A stretch of 64,000 bases of DNA, taken from assembly GCA_003339415.1 (NCBI GenBank), contig PDHQ01000040.1, positions 131,696 to 195,695 on the forward strand. The letters run 5' to 3'. This DNA is from Ophiocordyceps camponoti-saundersi (nom. inval.). Its lineage: Eukaryota > Ascomycota > Sordariomycetes > Hypocreales > Ophiocordycipitaceae. Below the pieces are notes generated by a model. The model was given only the letters and a program-made list of their open reading frames with translations. It did no database searches and was not told the DNA's origin. The position numbers and the translations under genes are program-made. Of the stretch, positions 7,557 to 15,941 are shown piece after piece. The first letter of the stretch is position 1. Each line of letters starts with the position of its first letter.

Positions 7557-10500
7557 CTACTCCCCAGTCACCGTCTCGGGACAAGTCAAGTGACCCTTTG
7601 CAATCTGATGTTCCCAAAACGCATCCCAAGTCCTCCAAACCTCTCGACTTCCGTCAAAGCACTCGTCATGTCCGCACACAAACCCCCCTCTCGCAGCAAA
7701 CGGCAAGTCATAGATGTCGTGGCAGACGGGGCAGGACTTTGAAGCTATTTCCAAGACTGTGTCCTGCTTGTTTGTTCGCTCTGTGGAGGACGTCTTGATG
7801 GCCTCGGTGAAGTGCGTGTGAGCCATGGTTATTCGTAGCAAGTCATACGCAGACTTTAGTTTATCCTCTTGATCTTCCTCAAAACCGAGGGAGAGCAGAA
7901 CAGCTCGTTCGGCATTGTCCATTAAGAGACACCATGCATCTTCCTCGGCTGCTAGATGCGTCGTAAAGTATGAGATCATCATGATGGTGTCGACCAACAT
8001 GTCTGTTACCTCGGCCGATGGCGAGAGGTCTTCAAGTAGCCTCCGCACCGAGGCGTCTGTCCCGGTGCAAAACTCTAGACGTAGCTTCGTTCGTATGACG
8101 TCCGCTAGGGCGAATCCGTCCATCGTTTGACACCAGACGGCGTCTTCGCAGATTATTGGTCCATCGGCAGAAGGATGGTAAGCCTCCAGCAGTTCAGACT
8201 CTTCAGACTCCTGGCTGGAGACTGAGTCTGTTTCCAAGGTGTTTCCAGGTTTGTTCCAGAGTAGTTGCTTGCTTCGTATCGGGCTGATGGCTACGTTTGG
8301 AGACTCGACCTCGATGGTTGGATCATATGGTGGACTTGGGTCAGGAGAAGAGTCACCCGCCCCTTCGGCTCTTCTATCAGAAGACGGAGGAGAAGCCGGC
8401 CTTGGGGAAGAGACCTTGAAGCTCGCATCAACAGGCGGCATTGAAGAATCGTGCTTTCCTATTTGGCCTTTCCCTGTTAGGATGTAACGCTCGCCATGTG
8501 CCATTGAAGGGCAATCTTCCATTTCAGAAGATGACGATGACGACGACTTCCCCTCAGATGATGGAAGAGGTAGGCCGACTTTGAACCTCCCATCTTCGTA
8601 TGACGGGACGTTAAACATTCCATCCCCGCGATATTCCCTATGTCTCAATGTTTGGCGTTCTGCCCTTCTGTAAGATGAAGACGGCGGCGGCTTCCTCTCA
8701 GACGGCGAAGGAGGTGGTACACAACACGGTGGAGGTGGAGGTGGAGATGGCATTTCGAGACTCCAAGTTGGGGCCCCGGACCGATGTTCACGGTCGCCTG
8801 GATGTGGCAGGTTCAGATTGTGTGTCCTCCCTGCTGATCCCGCCATAGGCTCTGCAGGCTCATTGTAGACGACGGCAAGGTCACTATATTGACGTGGGGA
8901 CGACTCCGGGGGCGGCATCGGGCAAGGATCAGAATCGGCCCAGTCGACGCCGACAAAGTCGTCGCCATAGTATTCGCTAGAATCATCGCCAGAGTCGTCT
9001 TCAGAGTCTTCGAAGCTGAGAAACTCCAGCAGATCAATCTGTTGAAACGGACTCTTGTAGAGATCAACCTCGTGAGCCTGTCTATCGTCTGCCACGGCTA
9101 CGAAGCTCGTCCACTTGCTGGCGACGGAGTATCTGATGCCGAGAGACTCTGCGTTTACTCGTACAAGGGCAGGTTCGGAACCTTGCGTCTTCGTCTCTTG
9201 GTCTAGGTCGAGGAGGATTGCTTTGGCTGCGAGATGGTGCATCGTCCCTCCGTTGGAGTTGACGGTCTCGACGTCAAGGGTATAAGTCTTCTTCTTAGCC
9301 CCCTCTGTCGTCGTGTGAAGAAACACCTTTTCCGGTGGTTTGCCGTTGCCGCGAAGATCGATGAGAATGAAGATCGACTTGTAGTTGTACGGGTGAAGAG
9401 GAGGAATCGGAAAAGGGGCTTGTATGAAGGGAACCAGTGATGGGTCTTGCAACTGTTCCGCTCCAAACTTAAAGTCCGAAAGACTCTTCCTTTCGTATCT
9501 TGGCTCGAGACTGACGTCGAAAGTCCAGCTGTTAGGTTCCATAGCAGAGCGTAGCAGGCGGTTAAATCGACCCTCCCAACGAGGACGCTTCACAACGTCG
9601 ACGACATCGCAGTAACCGCCACCAAGTCTAGCTATGCCCTCGACCATGTGATGCGAGACCATATCGCCAATACCAAGCGTGAAGAAGCGAACCTTGTCAC
9701 CCAGATCTCTCCGCGTATTCCACACAAACGAGATGATGTCGTCGTCGTCACCGACTTCGCCATCGGTGAGGAGGATGATTTGCGTCGAAGCTCGGCTCTC
9801 CATCCTGTGATTCAGGGCCGACTCCAGCGCGAGAAGCACTTCCGTCCCGCCCATGTCGGCGTTGATATAGGGGATATGTGACCTGGCGTCTTTGATCTTC
9901 TCAGCGTCAGAGGCGGGTTGCGATTCGTGCCATAGGCCTCGCACTTCGCTGCCAAAGGAGATGATGTTGAAGACGCAGGTTCGCGGTAAGCCGGATAGGG
10001 CCAGGGCCATGGCGGCGCGCATGGTGTCGATCTTGAGCCTGCCGTCGCCCTGGTTGGTCCAGCCCATGGATCCGGACCTGTCGAGGAGGAAGAGGATCTC
10101 GCCCGTGAAGCTCTGAGGCTGAACTGCGTTATTGAAGACGTCGTTTGGCCTCACGTGGACCATCAGAGCAGCGTGTCCGCTGTTATTGGTTGGGGCCAGC
10201 ACAGCTCGCGACCGCAGCCGTTCACCTTGAAGCATCTGAAGGACGAGAACAAAGTCTTTCTTTAAGATGGCTGAGTCGGAAGCGTAGTGCCAGACGAACT
10301 GCATCTGAGGCTTGTCTGCAGATGGCTGTGCCAGGCTCGCCAGCTCTGCTAAGCTGGTAGTGACCTGCTTCCGGGCAGACTCACGGCCCTCATAGCTGAC
10401 TTGATGCTCGGACTCGACACGACAACCCTCGGGGTTGATGGATCCGTCGTCGAGGACCCGGATCCAGAGGTCTAATTTGTTACCCGGAAGATCAGGAGCA

Positions 10501-11291
10501 GGAGCTTTGGCAGCCGGGGTGCCGTATCGAGGCGCGATCGACAGAGGTATCGTGATATCGAGGCCTTCGGATTTCTCTTCTTCCATGGTCACGACTTTGA
10601 GCTCGTGAACATATGAAAGCTTCACCTCAACCGTCGTCTTGGCAGGGATGTTACCCAGCGATATCTCGAGGATCTCCGGCGTAATCTCCTCCAAGACGCC
10701 TGCCGTCTCGCGCTTCTCTCTACGAGCCTTTTCGAACTCTTGTCTCGCCTGTTCCCTTGGTTTCACCACCCCCTTAAGAAAACGAACGTCTCCGATGGTG
10801 CACTCGAACGAAGTGACGACGGCTCCGTCATAAACCGGGAACGTATGACGAGCTTCGGGGATGTCGATCGTCGATGGGTTGTGATAGCTTTGTCGAAGTT
10901 CCGTCACGGCGATGATGCCATCGACTGTCACGTCCGCCGCAACGCTGAGAAGCGGGAGGCAGAAAGTCACAGGAGAGGCCGCTTTCTTCCCAGAGGGGTC
11001 CTCTGATGACGACGGCTGGTCATCCGAATCTGTCAACGGTGAACTCAGACTCTTGGCGAAGATGGGGAAAACGTTGTAGCCATCTTCTGTGTCTTCTGAA
11101 GGAGTCGCAGTCGCGAGATTGACGAATGGCGTCGTGCTTGGTAGCCCCTGTAGATTATGATGGTATGACACCTGCGGCTGCTTCTGCTTACCCTTTGAAG
11201 GGCGAACATCAGTAACCGCGGTGCTCGGATCGGCTGGTAGAGAGAATAAGACGCCTGAAGCCAGACGCTTGGTCAGTTGTCTTCGACTCAT
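7557..11291 (-). CDS. VIT and von Willebrand factor A domain protein
   Basis: Single-exon gene of 1244 residues. After a poorly conserved N-terminus comes a VIT (vault/inter-alpha-trypsin-like) domain around residues 110-240 (AVVTSFECTIGDVRFLKG, then YVHELKVV). A vWA domain follows at about 395-580 with an intact MIDAS metal site (D404-x-S-x-S in LLDRSGSMGW, then LLTDGEVGDDDD). Residues about 780-1080 are disordered, rich in Pro/Ser/Asp. The C-terminal 130 residues have a conserved-looking helical part ending in a Cys/His-rich segment (CPVCHDIYD, CGHDECFD). Fungal VIT-vWA proteins are widespread, cytosolic and mostly of unknown role; metal-dependent adhesion or complex assembly is the usual guess. 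It is transcribed divergently from the protease gene, with 316 bp between the start codons. Confidence 0.9.
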   Translation of the reverse strand: MSRRQLTKRLASGVLFSLPADPSTAVTDVRPSKGKQKQPQVSYHHNLQGLPSTTPFVNLATATPSEDTEDGYNVFPIFAKSLSSPLTDSDDQPSSSEDPSGKKAASPVTFCLPLLSVAADVTVDGIIAVTELRQSYHNPSTIDIPEARHTFPVYDGAVVTSFECTIGDVRFLKGVVKPREQARQEFEKARREKRETAGVLEEITPEILEISLGNIPAKTTVEVKLSYVHELKVVTMEEEKSEGLDITIPLSIAPRYGTPAAKAPAPDLPGNKLDLWIRVLDDGSINPEGCRVESEHQVSYEGRESARKQVTTSLAELASLAQPSADKPQMQFVWHYASDSAILKKDFVLVLQMLQGERLRSRAVLAPTNNSGHAALMVHVRPNDVFNNAVQPQSFTGEILFLLDRSGSMGWTNQGDGRLKIDTMRAAMALALSGLPRTCVFNIISFGSEVRGLWHESQPASDAEKIKDARSHIPYINADMGGTEVLLALESALNHRMESRASTQIILLTDGEVGDDDDIISFVWNTRRDLGDKVRFFTLGIGDMVSHHMVEGIARLGGGYCDVVDVVKRPRWEGRFNRLLRSAMEPNSWTFDVSLEPRYERKSLSDFKFGAEQLQDPSLVPFIQAPFPIPPLHPYNYKSIFILIDLRGNGKPPEKVFLHTTTEGAKKKTYTLDVETVNSNGGTMHHLAAKAILLDLDQETKTQGSEPALVRVNAESLGIRYSVASKWTSFVAVADDRQAHEVDLYKSPFQQIDLLEFLSFEDSEDDSGDDSSEYYGDDFVGVDWADSDPCPMPPPESSPRQYSDLAVVYNEPAEPMAGSAGRTHNLNLPHPGDREHRSGAPTWSLEMPSPPPPPPCCVPPPSPSERKPPPSSSYRRAERQTLRHREYRGDGMFNVPSYEDGRFKVGLPLPSSEGKSSSSSSSEMEDCPSMAHGERYILTGKGQIGKHDSSMPPVDASFKVSSPRPASPPSSDRRAEGAGDSSPDPSPPYDPTIEVESPNVAISPIRSKQLLWNKPGNTLETDSVSSQESEESELLEAYHPSADGPIICEDAVWCQTMDGFALADVIRTKLRLEFCTGTDASVRRLLEDLSPSAEVTDMLVDTIMMISYFTTHLAAEEDAWCLLMDNAERAVLLSLGFEEDQEDKLKSAYDLLRITMAHTHFTEAIKTSSTERTNKQDTVLEIASKSCPVCHDIYDLPFAARGGFVCGHDECFDGSREVWRTWDAFWEHQIAKGHLTCPETVTGE

Positions 11292-11607: not shown

Positions 11608-14600
11608 ATGACCAGTGAAATCGCCATCTGGAACTGTAAAGACATCCTTCATCTGGTGGCGAATCTCAGCCACGACAGGGCGAAACAAGTCTCCTCTGCA
11701 CTCTGCGTCCCATTGGAGTCTCTGCAAGCGATTCTCAGAACGTCCCGTGATAGGGCTGATAGCTTCAACGACGACTTGGTTGAATTCTCTTTTCGGAACT
11801 GCAACGAGTTTCTCTTATGCTTGGAGAGATTCTTGCGGGAGCCGGTCGTCGATCCTGACGATGATGGCTTTCTGGTTGCGTTGGAGTCACAGAGGAGTGG
11901 CTTGCTTGACGCTACCAATATCGTCATCCTGGCGATGGGCGTCAAGTTTGAGCATGTTGAGAGGTTGCACTTGTTTCGTGCTGTTTGTTTCTCTTGATCA
12001 AGACAGTAAACTGATCTTCTATAGCCTCGATCGAGATATAGCCAAGACGCAGCTTCAGATGCTCAAACTGGGATTCGACTCTATTTCTACCATGCTTTTC
12101 GAGTCCGCCGGAGCTATTTTCTACGACGCAAGAGGAGGACACACCAATGACGAAACCTTTATAGTGGGAGAGGTGGACATGCTCGACCTTCTCAGTTCCA
12201 ATTGGCCGACGCCTCCAACCGAACTCATCAGTCCCAACTTGCCGACGACTCGAACCGTTTGTCCCAAGGCATCGTTTCCCCGAAACATGACAAGGGAGAA
12301 GAGAATTCAACGCATCAGATTGAATTGCCTTTGTGACAAGACGGAAGGCTCTCACGATAACCTTCTCGAATATGAAGGTAAGAGTTGGCTCGCCGAAAGA
12401 CAAGGGCCGTATCAAATGCTCTTCTTCGTACACGACTAACGTGGTTGAATCAGTAACGCCATATACCTACTTGGTCGAAAACGTCTATGACCGAACCTGG
12501 CGTATGCGCTTGCACAAGCCTCGTTCCCAGAGGACTGTTTTCCTGGTCATGTCTGGCATCTCTTACAAGGGCAAGCACGAAAACATCTTACTTCTCATTC
12601 TACACCCTCTCTAATATTCCTTTCTACAGAGTGCGAAAAGCTCAGAGAGTTGTGGGAGTTACTCACGCTCCAGCTCTCGTCAAGAATGTCCAAGGTGTCC
12701 AAAATGCCTTCCAAGGAAGCCGTCACGGCAGACATGTACGTCTTCACAAGTCTTTGCGTCTAAACTTGTCCTGATTCTCATTTTCATTTAACCTCAAAGA
12801 ACAGTTTTTCTGGACTCAACAGAGAAAACACCTTCCAAGGTGGAGGTGGAAACATCGCATGGTAGGATGCCACTTGAGGGGAAGCCGACTATCATGAGAC
12901 TGTATCACTACTCGCAGTCCGTCGAGCCTCTTTGCGAATGGATTCCGAGCTCTACCTTCAAGTTGATGTTATTCCGGCCTTCGAATGAGGCTGTCTCTGT
13001 AGATGACGATGACGTCTTGACAGTCACAGGTGAGTTATCTAGGAGGGTTTGGGTCTGTGCCAATCAGCAAAGTCTCTGATGTTGAATTCACAGCATCCAA
13101 GGAATCAAGCATAGTTCGTGAATCTGGCCGGATGGGAACGCTAGGGGTAACTTTGAAAGACGTTCATGTTGATCAGAACCAAGTAACTCTCCCAAAGGCC
13201 AATGTGAAACTGCAGTTCGGTTCTATACATTGTCAGTTTCTCCCAGAGGGAAAGATGACTGCCTCTATATACTCACAACGTCTTTCGGTCTTTCTATAGG
13301 TGCTGCCATCTTTGCGGCGCAGTTTGAGGCTTTCAGGAACCGGCTGCTACAGATATGGGCTCAGAGACCTTTCGGAGATGAGGTTGAAGTTTACAAACGG
13401 TCAGCACTATATTCCCCTTGACCAGACCGACCTCCTTTACTTGATGTGAGCTGAAGAACGAAAACAGAGAATACGATGGCGCACCTGGTCACTATGCCGA
13501 AGATGCTCAGCTACGCGTTGTCGTCGTATCCGGACCCCCAAAGTCCAATCAAAGCAATCTCAGAATGATCATGGCAAAGAAAGGCGTCCCTAAATGGCTT
13601 TGTATAGACTGTGAGTGCATTTTAACCGGCTTCAACCCCTTTCTGATCATGAAATAGTCGAAGACAAGGCACTCAAGGTTGTCAAAAGAGGCCTGCTCGA
13701 GTCTCTAGATCTCGTGCGGTTATGGATGGTAGAAGAAGACGACAAGGGAAAACTACTCGTCTACCAGACAAACTGGAAAAAGATGATGGCTCAGGCCGTG
13801 GAAACGAGACGAATAACTCGAGTTGCTAATACGGGAGGCACTCAGCTGATAAGGTTGGAGGACTTTAACTCGAAACCCGAAGTAACATAACTAGAGCTAA
13901 CTTGATCTTTCACATAGAGAACAGCAGCAAACATCGGATGAGTGGGAAGACCGCATCGAGAGCGTCAAGATGGCTCTCGAGGCATCAGACACAGTGAAAG
14001 GAACGTACAAACGGGTGAAAGTCTGCGTCATCGACACAGGCTTCGACCCGAAGAACAAGAACAAAAGCCGGATCGTCTCCTACAAGGACTTTGCCGAGCC
14101 GAACAGGACGGACATGTGTGATTTGACGCATCACGGCACCTTCTCGGCGAACCTCATCCTTTCCATCTACGACGAATGCGAGCTCTACGTTGCGCGCGTT
14201 TTCACGACGAGCAACACGGATGAAGTGAAGGAACCGGAGTTGATGGCCAAGGCGAGTTTCTACCTTTCGACGTGAGGGAGATGGAAACAGAGAGAAGCGG
14301 TTTAACATGCTAACCTCACCTGAAAACTCACAGGCCATAGAATGGGCCATCGACAGCCCGCAAAACGTCGACATCATCAGCATATCAGCCGGTTTCAGCA
14401 AGCACTCGCCCACGGTCGAAAGCGCCGTGCAAAAAGCCAGCTGCGCCAACAAGCTCGTCTTCGCAGCGGCAGCCAACTGGGGGAACAAAGACCTAGTAGC
14501 CTTCCCAGCGCGTCACGCCCTTCACACCATCTGCATCTTCGCGACGGACGTCATCGCCAAGGCGTCCAGCTTCAACCCTGAAGGAAGGGAGAGGGCGCAT

Positions 14601-14945
14601 AACTTCGCTGTCCTGGGAGAGGGATTTCCGGACCCGAAGGACGCGAGGAGGAGGCTTAAGGGTACGAGTATGGCTACGGCGGCGGCGGCGGGGATTGCTG
14701 CTTTCGTCGTTGACTTTTCGAGGCATGGCGATAATCGGGCGTCTATCATTAGGGCGGCTGATGTCGGGAGGATGGCTGGTATGATTGCCGTCTTCGAGGC
14801 CATTTCTAGGCCTTGTGGTGGCTATAAGTGCGTTTCGCTTTCGAATCTTTTGCCGAGTAACTTTGAGGCTTTGTCCTGGAGGGCGGGCGAGTTGAGGACG
14901 TATGCGAGGCTGGCGATTTCGAGGGCTATGGATAGGGCTATGTAA
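11608..14945 (+). CDS. Subtilisin-like (S8) serine protease, HET-Q2-type, paired with gasdermin
   Basis: Eleven exons join in frame: 11608-11963, 12025-12377, 12454-12570, 12630-12735, 12800-13029, 13094-13231, 13300-13399, 13468-13610, 13658-13853, 13918-14251 and 14334-14945. They give 894 residues. The C-terminal third is a peptidase S8 domain with Asp619 (VCVIDTG), His652 (THHGT), oxyanion Asn739 (AAAANWG) and Ser803 (KGTSMATA). There is no signal peptide, so it should act inside the cell. Residues 1-270 are mostly helical and 280-470 look beta-rich; neither is recognised, and no NB-ARC or NACHT P-loop was seen. Introns 3 (12571-12629) and 10 (14252-14333) fit only GC-AG junctions. Known family logic: fungal gasdermins are commonly encoded beside S8 proteases that cleave them (HET-Q2/HET-Q1). 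The stop lies 41 bp from the convergent gasdermin stop. Catalytic assignment is strong; partnership is inferred from context. Confidence 0.85.
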
Positions 14946-14986
14946 TGAAGCGTGTTGTTTTCTCAACTTCTCGTCTGAAATCAGCT

Positions 14987-15941
14987 TCAAGACTCTTCTT
15001 TCCAGTACACGTCGTCCATCACGACAGCCTCGCCAGCCTCTTCGTCGTCTATGACCTTGAAGTTCTCCAGTCCCTCATCCTTGATGACGAGGCCCAGATC
15101 AACCTCGTCTTCATCTCCCACGCCAAAAGTAGCCCTGTGCGTAAAGGGATCGAGAGACCAGTCGGTCATGAGGACTCCCTTGTGGACTTTGGCCAGTCGT
15201 ACCGCCCAGATGAAGTCGGACATGTTGCCTTCTTCCGTCTCACGCGGTGCCTCGTTACTGTACTGGGCTGTAGCTTCAGCTGTAGCGACGGCCGGTACCT
15301 TGCTATCATTTCATCGAAAGAAAGATGATTAGCATCGAGAGATCGATTCTCCGCGGTGTATAAGAGAAAAGGGGGGACGTATATACTCACACCTGTGGCC
15401 CGCCCCCCGTCTCGGTTCCGCTCGCAGCCCTCGTCGACCGCTTCCCAGCCCTCGCAACTTTGATGCCAGTGATGATGAAGAAGCTCCAATCCTTCTTATC
15501 CTCGACATGATCCTTGACAAGAGCCATGCGAAGACACTGCTCGACATAAGGACGATTAGGCTGAACAAAGTAGGTATCAAGCCTTTCAAACTCCTCATAC
15601 TCGTCCACCGACCTCTGAAAAGCAAACCGAATGCTCGCCTTGACGGAGACGAGGCCAAGAGCAGCGGCAATCGTACCACCGGCGCCGAGAGCGAAGCCCC
15701 ATCCCGTCCTTTGACCGTCGTGCCACTTGAAATGGATCGACTCCGACTTGAAGACGGTCATGCGGGCGGGGAAGGCGACGACTTCGCCCCCGTTGATGGG
15801 GAAGTCGATGTGTTTGAGGTCCGGGATGATGTGGCCGAGGCAGATGGGCGTCTTGGTGTCGTCGCCGTCGCCTGCGAGGATCCTTTCCTCTGGGCCTGGA
15901 GGGTAGTGAGTCTGACGGAGCTTGAACCAGACCTTTTCCAT
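14987..15941 (-). CDS. Fungal gasdermin-like pore-forming protein (RCD-1/HET-Q1 family)
   Basis: Two exons (15941-15391 and 15302-14987, intron 15390-15303 with GTGAGT...TAG) give 288 residues, close to the length of HET-Q1. Family-like features: no signal peptide; a glycine/alanine-rich amphipathic stretch at 80-100 (GWGFALGAGGTIAAAL) followed by a strand-forming segment; YVEQCL at 132-137; and WSFFIITGIKVARAG at 152-166, similar to the conserved strand of fungal gasdermins. Residues 170-210 are a loop. A final basic/hydrophobic segment (IWAVRLAKVHKG) precedes a very acidic tail, 245-288. In the known system, cleavage near the C-terminus removes about 5 kDa, and the N-terminal part oligomerises into plasma-membrane pores that kill the cell. 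Here F237 and F243 lie at the expected place (inference). Family call is by pattern recognition, not by search. Confidence 0.75.

Follow-up and report, generated by a model that had tools for sequence, protein, structure and literature searches.

Known gasdermin systems and the locus under study

In Podospora anserina, the gasdermin HET-Q1 (278 aa) is partnered by the S8 protease HET-Q2 (388 aa; PMC10989679, in its accessible part). HET-Q2 probably cuts HET-Q1 at F238 and removes about 5 kDa, according to the accessible text of PMC10989679 and PMC12881547. RCD-1-1 and RCD-1-2 of Neurospora crassa (257 and 244 aa) are under no cleavage control and two alleles are needed, as far as the accessible part of a review goes; RCD-1 acts without cleavage, by meeting its other allele (PMC12881547, accessible text). 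Two-gene clusters of a fungal gasdermin (fGSDM) and an S8 protease receptor (Q2L) have been published, and by the accessible part of PMC10197012, about 80% of fungal gasdermin genes lie in a cluster with a gene for a protease, which is of the S8 type for about 63%. Here we describe two convergent genes, one for a gasdermin and one for an S8 (subtilisin-like) protease, in a 64,000-nucleotide stretch of contig PDHQ01000040.1 of Ophiocordyceps camponoti-saundersi, referred to as the window. Judged by sequence and predicted structure, the pair would be a fungal gasdermin with its dedicated S8 protease receptor, that is, an fGSDM/Q2L two-gene cluster, to which we give a probability of roughly 0.87.

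Like HET-Q1, the window gasdermin has an S8 partner, a similar length (288 against 278 aa) and a tail of about 5 kDa, with 45 residues after the proposed cut site against about 40 after the reported cut-site Phe. The protease is unlike HET-Q2, having 897 residues and a long N-terminal region; since HET-Q2 has only 388, the protein is better named a Q2L receptor. In sequence and predicted fold, the gasdermin is closest to RCD-1-1 and RCD-1-2, which differ from it in size and control. The published fGSDM/Q2L clusters have the same two components, but the N-terminal region here is not of the annotated TPR, ANK, WD40 or NLR type by Pfam. DUF7580-S8 proteases (PF24476; P0149 and P0151 are examples) have a related catalytic domain and a similar length; in contrast to them, the window protease has no PF24476 match, and the N-terminal profiles compare at a probability of 0.1%. 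Bacterial gasdermin systems share the gasdermin fold (predicted here), and have a protease neighbour and a short inhibitory domain (review, accessible part). They are, however, bacterial, and none of their gasdermins in the PDB was matched by the window gasdermin profile at E up to 10.

The locus had originally been predicted to be a het-Q2/het-Q1-type module. The gasdermin/S8 pair is borne out by sequence, fold and linkage, but the gasdermin is RCD-1-like and not HET-Q1-like by sequence. What stands out is that this RCD-1-like sequence is combined with an S8 partner and with a tail like that of HET-Q1. The pair as such belongs to an already described kind, and its N-terminal region falls in the unannotated majority of Q2L proteins. 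Among 20 papers with Ophiocordyceps and gasdermin, which to judge by their titles deal with medicine, pharmacology or food, none on this locus was found, in a search that subscription papers mostly lay outside.

The gasdermin and its acidic tail

The gasdermin gene and the parts of it discussed below are as follows.

15941..14987, minus strand: gasdermin gene (exon 1 15941..15391, intron 15390..15303, exon 2 15302..14987; 288 aa)
15125..15127, minus strand: codon of Phe243, predicted P1 residue of an activating cleavage, by inference from F238 of HET-Q1
14990..15124, minus strand: C-terminal tail, residues 244-288 (45 aa, 5.0 kDa, net charge about -14), predicted to be inhibitory

The single 88-bp intron has the boundaries GTGAGT..TAG. 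The product is identical over 288 aa to the annotated CP533_3732 (P0001) of O. camponoti-saundersi, and the landmarks on which the original prediction relied (WSFFIITGIKVARAG, YVEQCL and a Gly/Ala-rich stretch) were all found in it. When the single sequence was run against the PDB with phmmer, it matched RCD-1-1 (E 5.5e-35); HET-Q1 gave no match in this search at E up to 10. In a profile search of the PDB, RCD-1-1 was matched at E 1.2e-75 and HET-Q1, far less close and only distantly related in sequence, at E 4.2e-10. Hence, the nearest solved relatives are RCD-1-1 and RCD-1-2. The predicted model has a fold resembling the pores of RCD-1 and of bacterial and animal gasdermins. Absence of a gasdermin fold had been named beforehand as the outcome that would refute the prediction; as sequence and predicted fold both point to a gasdermin, that outcome did not arise. 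By these two lines of evidence, the 288-residue protein is a fungal gasdermin with a pore-forming domain, of the RCD-1 branch. We take its nearness to RCD-1 and not to HET-Q1 as a matter of branch, not of mode of control. In size, the protein departs from the tail-less RCD-1 proteins (244-257 aa), having 288 residues of which 45 form the tail.

The profile alignment with RCD-1 stops near residue 241 of the window gasdermin, and Phe243 lies just beyond. We aligned 58 of the 101 gasdermin homologue entries, the window protein included. Phe occupies the position of Phe243 in 50 of the 58, and at least 39 residues follow that position in 57. The sole short-tailed protein is P0096 from Neurospora hispaniola, with 7 such residues, and it is RCD-1-2-like (E 1.6e-132). 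By its sequence, the window gasdermin has the short C-terminal tail after a putatively cleavable residue that marks the HET-Q1 type. Since the HET-Q1 cut is alike in its position, in the residue and in the size of the piece removed, Phe243 is the obvious candidate for the cut site; on this analogy, cleavage after Phe243 is predicted, with the release of 5.0 kDa. We infer that the tail keeps the gasdermin inactive.

The S8 protease: gene model and catalytic domain

The protease gene, its exons and its catalytic features are located as follows.

11608..14945, plus strand: S8 (subtilisin-like) protease gene, 11 exons, 897 aa
11608-11972, 12025-12377, 12454-12570, 12630-12735, 12800-13029, 13094-13231, plus strand: exons 1-6
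13300-13399, 13468-13610, 13658-13853, 13918-14251, 14334-14945, plus strand: exons 7-11
11608..13936, plus strand: N-terminal region, residues 1-589, candidate sensor or regulatory part
14009..14714, plus strand: Peptidase_S8 domain (PF00082, by Pfam), residues 614-821, crossing intron 10
14033..14035, plus strand: codon of the catalytic Asp622
14132..14134, plus strand: codon of the catalytic His655
14475..14477, plus strand: codon of the oxyanion-hole Asn742
14667..14669, plus strand: codon of the catalytic Ser806

Exons were chosen by sequence comparison with the homologues P0103-P0105 and the deposited model P0102. The latter has 877 aa and is marked partial: the first three residues and most of exon 3 are absent, six additional residues stand where exons 5 and 6 meet, and exon 11 opens with K instead of IE. 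P0103, P0104 and P0105 all contain the exon 3 stretch, as well as IE or a similar sequence, and the 897-residue model is therefore favoured. It also supersedes an automatic splice model of 890 aa, in which exon 4 was in a different frame from the homologues. The length of 894 aa given earlier is thus replaced by 897 aa, and residue numbers shift by +3. It may be noted that introns 3 (12571-12629) and 10 (14252-14333), judged from the sequence, are probably GC-AG introns that the deposited annotation P0102 apparently missed.

The complete Asp/His/Asn/Ser set reported earlier (as 619/652/739/803) is retained in this model as D622, H655, N742 and S806. When the window protease model and its 101 homologue matches were aligned (102 proteins), these residues were conserved in 102, 100, 99 and 97 sequences, respectively. 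The S8 domain with Asp, His, Ser and the oxyanion Asn, which is one mark of a Q2L protein, is thus present. For the relative P0103, the S8 domain is supported by fold matches of its predicted model. By simple hydropathy, no signal-like or membrane stretch was found in the 897-aa protein; the highest 19-residue mean was 1.43 and lay within the catalytic domain. The protein is cytosolic-looking on this measure, as had been proposed.

The N-terminal region of the protease

No Pfam family, a TPR, ANK, WD40 or NLR sensor domain included, scored above the cut-off in the N-terminal ~590 residues or anywhere else in the protease outside S8. The earlier remark that the region matches no known sensor domain therefore holds at the Pfam level. 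Eighteen annotated Q2L architectures cover about one-third of some 1,500 proteins (PMC10197012, accessible part). Because annotated architectures account for only about a third of Q2L proteins, a Pfam-blank N-terminal region is not in itself unusual, and an annotated sensor is not required. We regard these residues as a candidate sensor. In the predicted model of P0103, the corresponding region is helical over ~1-138, followed by beta-rich segments with helices. In fold searches with this model, the best 50 matches in each list were all to S8 proteins.

Several identities for the region were tried and rejected. The protease alignment comprised 38 of the 101 entries. PF24476 (DUF7580) gave no Pfam match in the window protease at E up to 1, and a divergent DUF7580 found no support when profiles of 31 entries and 17 DUF7580-S8 proteins were compared (probability 0.1%). 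The secondary structure gave an impression of repeated PH-like modules, but the segment pairs m2/m3, m2/m4 and m3/m4 compared at probabilities of only 0.1%, 0.1% and 1.0%, so that the sequence lends no support to an internal repeat of the beta-rich segments. A weak match to PH_CERLI1 (E 0.034) occurred in one of the 38 members and was absent on a rescan of 10 proteins. A weak match to MLKL_N in P0104 (E 3.5) was set aside as chance.

Divergence from the window proteins was measured for six of the 101 proteases and six of the 101 gasdermins. Identities of the catalytic domain and of the gasdermin N-part were 88% and 86% for P0104/P0002, 75% and 69% for P0105/P0003, and 57% and 64% for P0108/P0005, so that the two diverge roughly in step in these three pairs. 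For the helical and middle parts of the protease, the identities were 58 and 63% (P0104), 46 and 51% (P0105), and 11 and 23% (P0108). The N-terminal region had 1.6-3.4 times as many differences per site as the catalytic domain in the six relatives, and 1.9-3.4 times within Ophiocordyceps; these figures are rough, as gene models differ and the P0104 middle figure leaves out 95 gapped positions. The pattern fits a catalytic domain and gasdermin that are mutually held while the N-terminal region tracks a changing cue; weaker constraint on that region would account for it just as well.

Linkage of the two genes

The last base of the protease stop codon is 14945, and in plus-strand coordinates the gasdermin stop codon starts at 14987. 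The two genes are convergent, at the place and with the spacing originally described.

14946..14986, no strand: gap between the stop codons, 41 bp

Adjacency to a gasdermin gene, a further mark of a Q2L gene, is thus found here, and it recurs in relatives. We compared 66 of the 101 gasdermin entries with 48 of the 101 protease entries, mostly those with locus tags. At least 19 of the 66 share their longest contig (by equal size) with a protease entry, a lower bound in view of clustering at 90% and of untyped entries; in 13 of these, the tags are at most two apart. Adjacent tags include XA68_13556/13557 (O. unilateralis), HIM_02316/02315 (Hirsutella), TRIATDRAFT_319911/319912 (Trichoderma), KJ359_001919/001918 (Pestalotiopsis), BHQ10_009569/009570 (Talaromyces), FACUT_7406/7407 (Fusarium) and B0A49_07279/07278 (Cryomyces). 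The proposed gasdermin-S8 linkage is thereby upheld, with an S8 neighbour recurring beside homologues in other genera. With 31 S8 exon matches in the 45.7-Mb assembly, a given gene has odds of about 0.7% of lying no more than 5 kb, to one side or the other, from such a match. Chance adjacency was rejected on these odds and on the recurrence of the pairing in other genera.

Possible action of the pair and alternative explanations

If the pair works as a protease-controlled module, the acidic tail would hold the gasdermin in check until a cue of danger or non-self is sensed by the faster-changing N-terminal region of the S8 protein, which would then switch on its protease domain. The S8 protease would then cut the gasdermin after Phe243, and the freed 243-residue part would oligomerise in the plasma membrane and kill the cell, as in the HET-Q2/HET-Q1 reaction. 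In the life of the fungus, such a module might serve to tell strains apart (allorecognition), to ward off parasites or to some other end.

Several observations weigh against this assignment. The gasdermin model is of moderate quality (mean predicted local distance difference test score 68.5, with 87 of the 288 residues below 50), and the protease fold was modelled on the relative P0103 and not on the window's own protein. As the gasdermin is nearer to the cleavage-independent RCD-1, the case for control by cleavage depends on its tail and on the adjacent protease gene. Among the gasdermin entries compared, 47 of 66 had no partner among the protease entries. One of the 19 linked pairs, P0022/P0190, has tags far apart, which is not adjacency, and the tags of P0001, P0002, P0009, P0039 and P0052 are indecisive on this point, adjacency for P0001 being shown by the window. 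For another gasdermin of the same genome, on C333, neither an S8 nor a CHAT match was found on the contig, although the contig end is only ~6 kb away; linkage is thus not shown to be universal.

A gasdermin/protease module might also be put to a use other than killing in allorecognition or defence, such as controlled secretion or developmental lysis. Secretion is named as a role still to explore for such clusters (PMC12881547, accessible text), but the two fungal gasdermin systems that have been characterised both bring about cell death in allorecognition (review, accessible part), and we consider such a use unlikely. Less likely again, and distinctly improbable in our view, is an RCD-1-like action, independent of cleavage, in which two antagonistic alleles meet after hyphal fusion and the protease neighbour is incidental or regulatory. 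That RCD-1-1 and RCD-1-2 are the nearest solved relatives speaks for it; however, the window gasdermin keeps the conserved 45-residue acidic tail that the RCD-1-2-like P0096 is without, and the S8 neighbour recurs across genera. It is hardly credible that a housekeeping subtilisin with no relation to the gasdermin lies next to it by accident: S8 exon matches do occur in the genome, but the odds of one so near are low, 13 gasdermin entries have a protease tag at most two away, and the window protease has, besides its own gene, only C77 and C110 among the matches listed in this genome at E<=0.1.

Other gasdermins and proteases in the genome

Besides the window gasdermin, two more were found in the genome, on C77 and C333. 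By sequence, this brings its gasdermins to at least three, from two branches, and two of the three have an S8 protease close by. The C77 gasdermin has a match to the HET-Q1 pore (E 7.7e-4), and at a distance of 2.9 kb a DUF7580-S8 protease gene converges on it; between the two lies an open reading frame (ORF) of the Fic/DOC family (PF02661, E 4e-9; L012 3838-4482). Within L012 1528-3326 (about 289.0-290.8 kb), the gasdermin ORF lies behind an ORF of the PNP_UDP_1 phosphorylase family (E 5.8e-14), with 72 bp between the stop of the latter and the gasdermin's own ATG. An ordinary intron (2510-2571 or 2510-2580) could join the two in frame, giving a phosphorylase-gasdermin fusion of 578 or 575 aa. 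On their sequence, the two ORFs can be joined into one fusion, or they may be two separate genes.

The third gasdermin (C333, 611.4-612.3 kb; L041 4944-5762) is HET-Q1-like (9uv9, E 2.1e-6) and possibly an orphan fungal gasdermin. The DUF7580-S8 protease on C110 (L042 2761-6022) had no gasdermin match on its contig in three gasdermin searches. In the window, the neighbouring minus-strand ORF at 7557-11291 encodes a 1244-aa protein with VIT and VWA domains.

Relation to RCD-1 and significance

A pseudogenisation origin for rcd-1 has already been proposed (PMC10197012, accessible part). We built a gasdermin tree from 44 of the 58 aligned gasdermins and one outgroup. P0096 from Neurospora groups with 33 tail-bearing sequences (85/81 support), and further tail-bearing sequences lie outside this group. 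The branch of P0096 is long (1.91) and that of the outgroup longer (5.32), and the rooting was flagged as unsure by the program. Such a topology fits a loss of the tail and the protease by RCD-1, but is not proof of it. Tentatively, and at somewhat less than even odds, we suggest that control by a protease, as in this pair, was the ancestral condition in the RCD-1 lineage, from which RCD-1 would have lost the acidic tail and the S8 partner and become an allele-versus-allele system, and that the ~590-residue N-terminal region is an undescribed sensor architecture of this Q2L branch.

In the same tree, the gasdermins of Sordariomycetes do not stand apart but are mixed with those of Talaromyces, Aspergillus, Exophiala and Cryomyces. 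The patchy pattern suggests that genes were lost or that the cluster was transferred.

Ophiocordyceps camponoti-saundersi infects ants, and with this pair the lineage of ant-infecting Ophiocordyceps is seen to have a pyroptosis-like module that looks complete. With one gene pair, two questions become testable: which cue is sensed by the Q2L receptor, and what connects RCD-1, which works without cleavage, with the majority of systems, which are under protease control. The relatives keep the tail and the protease that RCD-1 is without, and gain or removal of the tail would bear directly on the history of RCD-1.

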